From Kribbella pratensis (GTDB lineage: Bacteria; Actinomycetota; Actinomycetes; Propionibacteriales; Kribbellaceae), in assembly GCF_004365355.1 (NCBI RefSeq), contig NZ_SODP01000004.1, forward strand, positions 186,001 to 250,000: a DNA stretch of 64,000 bases. Reading direction: 5' to 3'. Both the position numbers and the translations under genes were made by a program. Shown piece after piece: positions 15,756-20,167 of the stretch. The stretch's first letter is position 1. Every line of letters starts with the position of its first letter. The notes beneath the pieces are model-generated. The model was not told the origin of the DNA, did no database searches, and saw nothing but the letters and a program-made list of their open reading frames with translations.

Positions 15756-16310
15756 GTGAGCGATGCGTGGGCAGCACGGAGCGGATTGACGGCGATTCTG
15801 ATCACAGTGCCCGAGCTGGCGGCGTATACCGATCGTTGGCGTTCGGTGTCACGGTCGACAGCTCGACCCCAGGTGCCACTGACGGAGCTGATCCCACCGC
15901 ATGTGACTGTGCTGGTTCCGTGGGTTGCCGAGCCCAGCGACGCCGACATTGCTCGCCTACGGTCCGCTGTTTCGTCCATCGAGCCTTTTGAGCTCAGCTT
16001 CCCGACCGCTGGTCAGTTCCCGAACGGCACGGCCTGGCTGAAGCCGGAACCGTTCGACACCGTCCGCTCTTTACTTCACAGCGTGTTCGCAGCCTTCCCG
16101 GAGTGCCCGCCGTACGGCGGTGAGTTCCCGGACGTGCATCCGCATCTGACGATCTCGTCGTCCACGCAGGGCGGCCCGGCCGTGGTCGCCGAGGCGCAGG
16201 CCGCTCTGGCCGCGACACCGGCCCCGACTATCCAGCTGACTGAGCTGGGACTGTGGCGTGAGGACACGGACGGGGCATGGCACCAGTTCGGCGCCGTACC
16301 GCTCGGATGA
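15756..16310 (+). CDS. 2'-5' RNA ligase / 2H phosphoesterase family protein
   Basis: 184 aa with the two catalytic HxT/S motifs of the 2H superfamily, PPHVTVLVP (about residues 48–56) and HPHLTISSS (about 131–139), about 80 residues apart as expected. Family members hydrolyse 2',3'-cyclic phosphates or 2'-5' linkages, so RNA end processing is likely; the natural substrate is unknown. GTG 15756 is the first reasonable start. The stop overlaps the start of the MidA-type methyltransferase by ATGA, so both are made from one message. Confidence 0.85.
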
Positions 16311-17182
16311 GCTTCCGAGCAGCTTGGCAGCAGGCCCTCTACGGCCCCGACGGCTTCTACCGCCGGGAGCGCCCGGCCGCCCATTTCCGTACGTCGGTGC
16401 ACGCGTCGACGCTCTTCGGGCAGGCCATCGCCCGCCTCGCTCATCTGCTCGATTTGGACGAGGTCGTGGACATCGGCGCCGGGTCCGGCGAACTGGGCAA
16501 GGTACTCCGCGCCGACGGCCTCACCGTCCTGGACATCGAACTGGACGACGAGCTCCCCGAGCGCCTGTCCGGGTTGGTGATCGCCAACGAGTGGCTCGAC
16601 AACATCCCGTGCGAGGTCGTCGAGTGGGACGACGAAGGCATGCCGCGTTACCTGCTCGCCGACGCCACTCCAGGGCCCGTTGTCAAAGGCAACGATCTGG
16701 CCTGGCTCGACCGCTGGTGGCCCGGTACGCCGGGTGATCGGGCTGAAATCGGAGCCGCTCGTGACGAGTCCTGGGCCGGCGTGATCGACCGCCTTGCGCC
16801 GGGGAGTGTCGCCGTTGCGATCGACTACGGTCACCTGAGAGCAGCCAGGCCGCCGTACGGGACACTGACCGGCTTCCGCAACGGCCGTGAGTGCGACCCG
16901 GTACCGGACGGCACCTGCGACATCACCGCCCACGTAGCCCTGGACTCCCTCGGCGGCACGATCGTGAGCCAGCGTGACGCACTGCGAGCCTTAGGCGTCA
17001 GCGCAACCAGACCCCCGCTCGACCTGGCGCAAGCAGAGCCGATGCGCTACCTGTCCGAGCTGTCCTCGGCCGGTGAAGCAGCTGAGCTACTGGACCCGTC
17101 CGGCCTCGGCGGGTTCGGCTGGGTCTGGACCGCGAAAGGCGCCGACACCGTACGCCGGGCCTCCCGCGCCCTGTCCGCCTGA
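16307..17182 (+). CDS. MidA-type (NDUFAF7/DUF185) SAM-dependent methyltransferase
   Basis: 291 aa, shorter than the usual 350–400. Near residues 21–70 HFRTSVHASTLFGQAIARL precedes the SAM-binding VVDIGAGSGELGKVL. Further along are IANEWLDNIPCEVVEW and the C-terminal signature AIDYGH … YGTLTGFRNGRECDPVPDGTCDITAHVAL. This pattern belongs to COG1565, whose mitochondrial member NDUFAF7 dimethylates an arginine of the complex I 49-kDa subunit. A NuoD paralogue is encoded 1.8 kb away. It is coupled to the 2H gene, and its 3' 136 bp overlap the convergent PH-domain gene. Confidence 0.88.
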   Translation: MSFRAAWQQALYGPDGFYRRERPAAHFRTSVHASTLFGQAIARLAHLLDLDEVVDIGAGSGELGKVLRADGLTVLDIELDDELPERLSGLVIANEWLDNIPCEVVEWDDEGMPRYLLADATPGPVVKGNDLAWLDRWWPGTPGDRAEIGAARDESWAGVIDRLAPGSVAVAIDYGHLRAARPPYGTLTGFRNGRECDPVPDGTCDITAHVALDSLGGTIVSQRDALRALGVSATRPPLDLAQAEPMRYLSELSSAGEAAELLDPSGLGGFGWVWTAKGADTVRRASRALSA

Positions 17183-18973: not shown

Positions 18974-20167
18974 ATGAGCACGGAAAGAGTCGTCGGAGTC
19001 GGGACCGGAGCTGCCGGATTCGACCCTGCTTATGAGCGTGGTGGAGCCGGATCGGACCTGCCGACCACCGACATGGTGCTCAACATCGGTCCGCAGCACC
19101 CGGCCACCCACGGGGTACTGCGGTTGCGGCTCACGCTCGACGGCGAACGGATCGTGAGCTGCGAGCCGATCATCGGCTACATGCACCGCGGCGCCGAGAA
19201 GCTGTTCGAGGTCCGCGACTACCGGCAGATCATCGTGCTGGCGAACCGGCACGACTGGCTGTCGGCGTTCGCGAACGAACTCGGCGTCGTGATCGCGGTC
19301 GAGCGGATGATGGGACTCGAGGTGCCGGACCGGGCGGTCTGGCTGCGGACCCTGCTGGCGGAGCTGAACCGGGTGCTGAACCACCTGATGTTCCTCGGCT
19401 CGTACCCGCTCGAGCTCGGCGCGATCACGCCGGTGTTCTACGCGTTCCGCGAGCGCGAGACGATCCAGGCGGTGATGGAGGAGCTGTCCGGCGGCCGGAT
19501 GCACTACATGTTCAACCGGGTCGGCGGACTCAAGGAGGACCTCCCGTACGGCTGGCTCGGTCGCGCGGCCGCCGCCTCCGCCGCGGTCCGCAAGCGCCTG
19601 CCCGATATCGAGGAGATCATCCTCGGCAACGAGATCTTCCGGGCCCGCACGATCGGCATCGGCAAACTCGCCCCCGAGCTCATCGCGCAGTACGGCGTCT
19701 CCGGCCCGATCGCCCGCGCGTCAGGTGTCGACGCCGACCTCCGCCGCGACGAGCCCTACCTCGCGTACGGCGACCTGCAGGACGTACTCCGCGTGGTCAC
19801 CCGCCCCGAAGGCGACTGCTACGCGCGCTTCTCCGTGCTGCTCGAACAGGTGAAGGTCTCGCTCGACCTGGTCGACGCCTGCCTCGACAAGCTGTCTGCG
19901 ATGCCGGCCGGACCGGTGAACGTACGGCTGCCGAAGATCCTCAAGGTCCCGGAGGGCCAGACGTATGCCTGGACCGAGAGCCCGCTCGGCATCAACGGCT
20001 ACTACCTGGTCTCGCGCGGCGACAAGACGCCGTGGCGCTTGAAGCTCCGCTCGGCCAGCTTCAACAACATCTCCGCACTCCCGGCGCTGCTGCCCGGCAC
20101 GATGATCCCCGACATGATCGCGATCCTCGGCAGCATGTTCTTCGTCGTCGGCGATATCGACAAGTAG
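18974..20167 (+). CDS. Stand-alone NADH-quinone oxidoreductase subunit D paralogue (NuoD2-like)
   Basis: 397 aa, homologous over its whole length to NuoD/49-kDa. Conserved parts include [60 protein letters not shown] and the C-terminal GDIDK. Aligned without gaps to bovine NDUFS2, quinone-site His59 is kept (His46) and Arg85 is kept (Arg72), but Tyr108 is Trp95 and Asp160 is Glu147. No other nuo gene is nearby. ATG 18974 has an AGGGGG ribosome site. It may be an alternative complex I subunit or have left quinone chemistry altogether. Confidence 0.92.

Follow-up and report, generated by a model that had tools for sequence, protein, structure and literature searches.

In models of complex I, the tyrosine next to cluster N2 is central to quinone binding and protonation. 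Passages of one review (PMC8119997) describe this residue, Tyr108 in bovine numbering, as a ligand of the quinone that is strictly conserved. The 64,000-nucleotide stretch of Kribbella pratensis DNA that was analysed here (hereafter the window) contains a gene for a NuoD-type protein with tryptophan in its place, and the question raised by the locus is which enzyme such a protein would serve. A first-pass annotation had described the gene as a NuoD paralogue standing alone, with two quinone-site residues replaced, and had offered two readings, namely a swapped-in subunit that lowers or changes quinone reduction by complex I and a hydrogenase-like relative with another role.

Integrity and residues of the gene

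The gene, here called nuoD2, is an intact open reading frame with an ATG start at 18974 and a TAG stop ending at 20167, and the sole Pfam domain of its 397-residue product is Complex1_49kDa (PF00346, 239.8 bits). Its alignment with NDUFS2 covers residues 30–397 in two stretches, as full-length homology would have it, and alignments with the PDB chains of mouse NDUFS2 and Thermus Nqo4 are gapless past residue 147. In both, the residues opposite His46, Trp95, and Glu147 are His, Tyr, and Asp, and an offset of 13 places the three at bovine positions 59, 108, and 160 (Table 1), which bears out the identification as a NuoD paralogue and the pairing of these three residues. Taken as a D subunit of complex I, the protein has the quinone-ligand histidine of bovine position 59 and departs from the family at the tyrosine termed strictly conserved. 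Two more residues of interest, Arg72 and His177, correspond to bovine Arg85 and His190, which we take to lie near cluster N2. An AlphaFold model of the protein was built on a shallow alignment (mean pLDDT 61.2) and was uninformative on Trp95. The nearest named locus is that of K. jiaozuonensis, at 99% identity; across the seven named Kribbella loci that encode the protein, identity ranges over 87–99%.

Other identities and origins were considered as well. The hydrogenase-like reading was rejected as unsupported, since the whole protein is free of CxxC motifs and lacks both of the CxxC metal-ligand motifs of the [NiFe]-hydrogenase large subunit. With FpoD of F420H2 dehydrogenase (NCBIfam NF040602), the protein can be aligned over its entire length, but its score of 296.1 bits is below the cut-off of 600. 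Recent transfer by plasmid or phage was set aside because the sole match of at least 60% in the plasmid collection was an 11.8-Mb Nonomuraea record, the weaker matches among those listed including rhizobial and Paenibacillus NuoD, and because a search for viral relatives found none.

Table 1. Positions of nuoD2, selected codons and neighbours in the window, and of the other second-set genes in the same genome (C3 and C4 are contigs of that genome)
Feature	Position	Strand	Basis and remarks
nuoD2	18974..20167	+	397 aa; open reading frame and PF00346; tree group and operonic relatives
His46 codon	19109..19111	+	Bovine NDUFS2 His59, quinone ligand, retained; PDB alignment and column table
Arg72 codon	19187..19189	+	Bovine Arg85 in HRGxE, target of human NDUFAF7; retained; Thr in the genome's canonical NuoD
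Trp95 codon	19256..19258	+	Bovine Tyr108, ligand of the quinone head group; Trp across the NuoD2 group
Glu147 codon	19412..19414	+	Bovine Asp160; Glu in canonical actinobacterial NuoD too, not distinctive
His177 codon	19502..19504	+	Bovine His190; retained; Asn in canonical NuoD
midA-like gene	16277..17182	+	MidA/NDUFAF7-family Methyltransf_28 (PF02636), COG1565/DUF185; 45.2 bits, above the cut-off of 23.3
2'-5' RNA ligase/LigT-like gene	15756..16310	+	34-base overlap with the start of midA; context only
bPH_2 domain protein, 474 aa	17047..18471	-	Between midA and nuoD2; in 44/80 named loci; context only
bPH_2 domain protein, 162 aa	18459..18947	-	Divergent from nuoD2, with starts 26 bases apart; in 46/80 named loci; context only
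nuoA2	C4:6189-6527	-	Own genome
korAB	C4:7504-10718		Own genome, beside nuoA2
nuoB2-nuoC2	C3:4114-5456		Own genome
nuoH2	C3:8294-9241		Own genome
nuoI2 to nuoN2	C3:17258-23380		Own genome

Tryptophan and tyrosine across NuoD

In a tree of 122 NuoD rows (87 with Trp and 35 with Tyr; 138 open reading frames merged to 123 by identical core, with the fragment L087 omitted), from which the column in question had been removed, a single change separates Trp from Tyr, a count that is independent of the root of this quick build, in which treekit flagged long branches, whereas the order of events depends on the root. The Trp rows all fall to one side of one branch of this tree and form a separate group. 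Because the NuoD2 group was defined as the rows with Trp, its score of 87/87 in the column table is true by definition; all of the 80 named loci, for which similarity was the sole criterion of choice, nevertheless have both the Arg and the Trp, which excludes chance as the source of the latter. The end branch of the window's NuoD2 is short (0.11), and NuoD2 evolves fast in some lineages.

At bovine positions 85, 108, 160, and 190, the 22 canonical actinobacterial rows uniformly have Thr, Tyr, Glu, and Asn, as does the genome's own canonical NuoD, encoded on contig C4. Among Trp-type rows, 67 have Arg, Trp, Glu (61 rows) or Gln (six rows), and His, and 20 long-branch rows have Arg, Trp, varied residues, and His, so that Arg72 and His177 are present in 87/87 rows where the canonical proteins have Thr and Asn in 22/22. 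The first-pass annotation had asked whether Trp and Glu mark a separate clade, and the answer was yes for Trp and no for Glu: the latter is not peculiar to NuoD2, since every canonical row has it as well, and we discarded it as a distinguishing residue. An observation on the canonical proteins themselves (L001 1498-2835 and 21 others) is that their Thr and Asn stand where mitochondrial NDUFS2 has Arg85 and His190.

Tyrosine occupies the quinone-ligand position in one Paenibacillus and one Rhizobium NuoD, and 13 further NuoD rows from the phylum of Kribbella combine Arg at 85 with Tyr at 108. Eleven of these 13 lie in fetched stretches without NuoE, NuoF, or NuoG and two in stretches with F and G; Trp is therefore not a general mark of complexes that lack the NADH module.

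A probable second complex I encoded apart from nuoD2

The description of the gene as alone was correct as regards nuo genes: a tblastn search of the 64 kb (E 0.01) that used as queries this genome's 14 canonical subunits and nine subunits of the second set, A2 not among them, returned no other. It overlooked, however, the MidA/NDUFAF7-family gene (PF02636). Outside the class to which Kribbella belongs, the Trp-type gene has an operon of its own. In 16 of 17 such loci it lies between nuoC2 and nuoH2, within a cluster of the order A2-B2-C2-D2-H2-I2-J2-K2-L2-M2-N2, a few subunits being undetected and one cluster breaking off past H2 where its contig ends; in the exceptional locus (L051), D2 adjoins a MidA-like gene. 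The same C2-D2-H2 adjacency was found in five of six further Trp-type loci, and the outside-class clusters often adjoin canonical nuoLMN genes. The first-pass annotation had named many normal operon-encoded NuoD proteins with Trp and Glu as a finding that would refute it; most operonic NuoD2 outside the class do share them, but in the operon of a second complex and not of the normal one.

Within the class, the nuo2 clusters are without D2 in all 20 loci examined and also in G128, G399, and G085. NuoE, NuoF, and NuoG are absent from 17/17 outside-class loci, from 20/20 class loci, and from the C3 stretches of the window's genome. That genome has the normal nuo operon that the first-pass annotation asked after, a canonical set on contig C4 with its own NuoD, to which NuoD2 is 35% identical. 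It also has the remaining ten nuo2 genes, and all eleven second-set subunits are open reading frames. Since nuoA2 reads toward the start of C4 and nuoB2 away from the start of C3, the A2 and B2 blocks may be one locus split by a contig break. A lone third NuoH (C1:3421994-3422959; L041 10791-12011) is 68% identical to the canonical one, and it was rejected as a member of the second cluster because it stands alone among unrelated genes. Elsewhere, on contig C2, the genome has genes resembling the small and large subunits of [NiFe]-hydrogenase (L043 8029-10926), with likely maturation genes nearby as judged by eye.

A second NuoB goes with NuoD2. Across 216 class genomes, two NuoB proteins were present in 86/91 NuoD2 carriers and 8/125 non-carriers, where genomes were counted regardless of relatedness and the counts share ancestry, and where the NuoD2 type comprised those of the matches listed that reach the C-terminus with E <= 1e-69 (rounded), plus the fragment G375. 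A NuoB2 close to that of Kribbella was likewise found in 62/74 carriers of a NuoD2 at least 57% identical, against 2/142 of the others. The genome G399 consists of 60 contigs and was rated at 100% completeness and 0% contamination. Among the matches listed for it, the single NuoD, NuoB, and NuoH all belong to type 2 and NuoF does not appear; the G399 cluster (L154, L155) runs A2-B2-C2-H2 through N2, with D2 elsewhere near MidA. The second complex may therefore be a genome's only complex I.

The four cysteines of N2 are retained in NuoB2, and both CxxCxxCxxxCP cluster motifs are present in NuoI2. The antiporter-like Glu and Lys residues that we take to matter for pumping are in place in M2 by PDB alignment and in L2 and N2 by eye in the translations. 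With these redox motifs and pump residues in place, the replacement of tyrosine by tryptophan sits in an otherwise complete-looking enzyme.

KorAB and the electron donor

Genes for KorA and KorB, recognised by their POR and TPP domains, stand no more than about 5 kb from nuoA2 or nuoB2 in 16 of the 20 nuo2 clusters of the class, two of the other four stretches stopping at a contig end, and in the window's genome they lie beside nuoA2. This proximity suggests ferredoxin as the donor, and we infer that Kor uses 2-oxoglutarate and feeds Nuo2 through ferredoxin. None of the 17 outside-class loci has KorAB, nor do the 20 kb that surround the nuo2 cluster of G399; together with the four class loci, these cases make Kor at most a lineage-specific donor. 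The conserved non-nuo genes of the outside-class operons were mostly antisense reading frames and included no donor candidate.

A second complex fed by some other donor, such as F420H2, flavodoxin, or a flavoprotein, or running in reverse, is unlikely but deserves attention. The 17 outside-class operons without KorAB nearby speak for it, as does the end-to-end alignment with FpoD in spite of its low score, whereas the association of KorAB with the 16 class clusters, and with nine of the 17 reduced clusters described below (a remnant adjoins a tenth), speaks against it. An MTHFR-like gene (PF02219; C3:16443-17201; L045 444-1199) lies directly before nuoI2; it was dropped as a candidate donor, having been found at only one of 62 loci searched, that of the window's genome.

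In passages of published work, the donor of 11-subunit complexes is termed open in an account of Desulfitobacterium, with pyruvate:ferredoxin oxidoreductase as a candidate (PMC11238625), and the acceptor of mycobacterial Kor is described as not identified (PMC2773412). The M. tuberculosis KorAB treated there belongs to the same 2-oxoacid:ferredoxin oxidoreductase family; unlike it, the KorAB of the window's genome is encoded beside nuoA2, and its substrate is presumed.

A MidA-type methyltransferase near nuoD2

The midA-like gene lies 1.8 kb upstream of nuoD2, and its product has weak relatives in the PDB (4f3n and 1zkd, both COG1565/DUF185) with which it shares the motifs NExLDxxP, IDYG, and DITAHV. 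According to passages of earlier reports, NDUFAF7 dimethylates Arg85 of NDUFS2 during assembly in human (PMC3829151), the same arginine is dimethylated in Paracoccus and not in E. coli (PMC3750175), and this HRGxE arginine stabilises N2 in a yeast (PMC8042128). NuoD2 has the arginine and the canonical NuoD of the same genome does not. Like NDUFAF7 and MidA as described in passages of PMC3829151 and PMC9006661, the window's protein belongs to PF02636, has the shared motifs, and is encoded near a gene with the target arginine; it differs in being short and divergent, and we regard it as a putative methyltransferase.

In the class sample, MidA was found in 81/91 NuoD2 carriers and 7/125 non-carriers, and 75 of the 81 pairs are on the same contig, all within 10.8 kb and 33 within 1 kb. 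In the phylum sample, where the NuoD2 type was set at E <= 1.8e-100 among the matches listed and checked in part for Trp, the figures were 72/105 carriers and 17/191 others; genomes in both tables were counted irrespective of kinship. Here both genes are on one contig in 48 of the 72 pairs, no more than 9.1 kb apart in 45 and 14–26 kb apart in three, and 24 pairs are on different contigs, including that of G081 despite its long contigs. MidA was present in 71 of the 80 named loci; in most of the nine without it, a flank runs into the end of its contig, although not in L266.

MidA went undetected in 10/91 class carriers, in one of which (G437) a MidA-like open reading frame appeared on closer look, and in 33/105 phylum carriers; given these and the 24 unlinked pairs, the methyltransferase is neither indispensable nor always linked. 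It also accompanies Tyr-type, arginine-bearing NuoD in G002, G033, and G180 and so goes at most with the arginine, not with the Trp. An improbable alternative is that MidA is a chance neighbour, both genes having been retained in the pan/fol region of the chromosome, an old synteny in which a DUF2520 gene stands alongside in many loci. Outside the class, however, MidA is on the same strand as D2 and 7.6–9.0 kb downstream of it in 16 genomes of the phylum sample; in L060, L061, and L062, the coordinates put this just past nuoN2, where the nuo2 operon ends. In family f86, moreover, MidA was present in 8/8 NuoD2 carriers and 0/10 members without NuoD2, and in family f7 three carriers had MidA and one non-carrier did not, as judged by eye among the matches listed.

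Reduced clusters and the question of decay

Twenty NuoD2 rows of the class, many of them long-branched, form one group (support 99). Of the 20 stretches fetched from these genomes or related ones, three (L316-L318) contained canonical operons only, and all 17 NuoB2-type clusters (L300-L315, L319) consist of B2-C2-I2 without A2, H2, or J2-N2, D2 being detached. A single NuoH match (PF00146) was present in 24 of 27 such genomes, in 17 of which the B2-C2-I2 cluster itself was seen and three of which (G351, G364, G308) are 70–78% complete; the extra matches in G473, G304, and G325 are fragments or much weaker (137 bits or less). Among nine nuo2-bearing controls, seven have two NuoH, G399 has one (type 2), and G062 has three including a fragment. 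In the reduced set, Arg72, Trp95, and His177 are retained in 20/20 rows and the four N2 cysteines in 14/14 NuoB2-type open reading frames, whereas His46 is kept in 15/20 and lost in 5/20 and Glu147 is kept in 4/20. Most reduced clusters also have a DUF520/YajQ gene downstream of nuoI2 on the opposite strand (e.g., L301 5990-6796).

This pattern is consistent with the N2 site having been kept while the coupling to quinone and protons was lost. Tentatively, as a possibility that we would not yet favour, the second complex I of this one branch of the class may have lost its whole membrane arm and become a ferredoxin-linked core whose acceptor is not membrane quinone, Trp95 then belonging to the electron exit from N2 instead of serving as a quinone ligand; we infer that such a module would be soluble and active.

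The scattered nuo2 set of Kribbella might instead be decaying, with NuoD2 the leftover of a complex no longer made. The operon is broken into blocks with unrelated genes between them, NuoH2 is broken in G062, and there are lineages with fast-evolving NuoD2; yet the window's genome has eleven open reading frames with the checked motifs in place, and its NuoD2 combines the short end branch with high identity across the seven Kribbella loci, so that we give this account a slim chance. In G062 itself (L334), an apparent decay of nuo2 was observed, with A2-B2-C2, a broken H2, and I2 but no J2-N2 and no KorAB in the stretch.

Discussion

The exchange of NuoD2 into the normal 14-subunit complex I, lowering or altering its quinone reduction as the first-pass annotation had proposed, is highly improbable: the shared family, a canonical operon to supply the other subunits, and the position of D2 away from nuo genes are outweighed by the second NuoB in 86/91 carriers, the operon that D2 has outside the class, the differing N2-site residues and low identity to canonical NuoD, and its presence in G399, where no canonical NuoB, NuoD, or NuoF appears among the matches listed. 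Most likely, to judge from these genomic comparisons, the window's gene is not a swapped-in copy but the NuoD2 of a second complex without NADH module.

In fuller form, the gene probably encodes the NuoD2 of an 11-subunit complex I that has Trp95 for tyrosine and would be fed by KorAB and ferredoxin and methylated by MidA. In the class of Kribbella, as the sequences show, the D gene has left the nuo2 operon and lies near a MidA/NDUFAF7-type methyltransferase gene. KorAB beside nuoA2 would oxidise 2-oxoglutarate and reduce ferredoxin, which would dock on NuoC2/NuoI2, and electrons would travel through NuoI2, by way of its two [4Fe-4S] clusters, to N2 at NuoB2/NuoD2 and on to menaquinone while H2, L2, M2, and N2 pump protons. 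MidA would dimethylate Arg72 of NuoD2 and thereby assemble or tune N2. The quinone would be held by His46, with Trp95 in the place of the usual tyrosine, in which case the second proton would come from a donor other than a tyrosine hydroxyl.

Neither the gene family nor the 11-subunit type is new. The existence of nuoD2 is known from Streptomyces, where passages of two papers (PMC3765725, PMC8388888) describe a nuo2 set (nuoA2, B2, D2, H2-N2) that likewise has no N-module genes and has nuoD2 apart. The window's gene is the likely orthologue, 76–78% identical in Streptomyces loci, and the Kribbella set is more scattered. Those passages propose that NuoL2/NuoM2 exchange into complex I; reduced forms, Trp, MidA, and Kor go unmentioned in them. 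The 11-subunit enzymes of Desulfitobacterium (PMC11238625) and Chloroflexi (PMC5736913) resemble nuo2, in the passages describing them, in having nuoABCDHIJKLMN without EFG and in the suspicion that ferredoxin comes from a 2-oxoacid oxidoreductase; unlike them, the window's NuoD2 has Trp for Tyr and a D gene detached near midA. Canonical 14-subunit NuoD/NDUFS2 shares with NuoD2 the PF00346 domain, the HRGxE motif, the histidine ligand, and an acidic residue at 160, and differs at 108; the canonical actinobacterial proteins differ further, with Thr85 and Asn190 against Arg and His. Passages retrieved in a search of the open-access literature held no statement of a lineage-wide Trp, of a MidA or Kor linkage, or of a reduced module.

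Whether the tyrosine is needed can readily be tested in a natural lineage that has tryptophan at this site and retains the redox and pump residues that were checked. From the linked MidA and the kept arginine, one would predict methylation of a bacterial complex I at the position modified in the human enzyme, for which the canonical NuoD of the same cell, with its Thr, is an internal control. The linkage to KorAB offers a donor for an 11-subunit complex I and an acceptor for actinobacterial Kor, and the reduced B2-C2-D2-I2 form, if it works, would show a Q module acting without a membrane arm.
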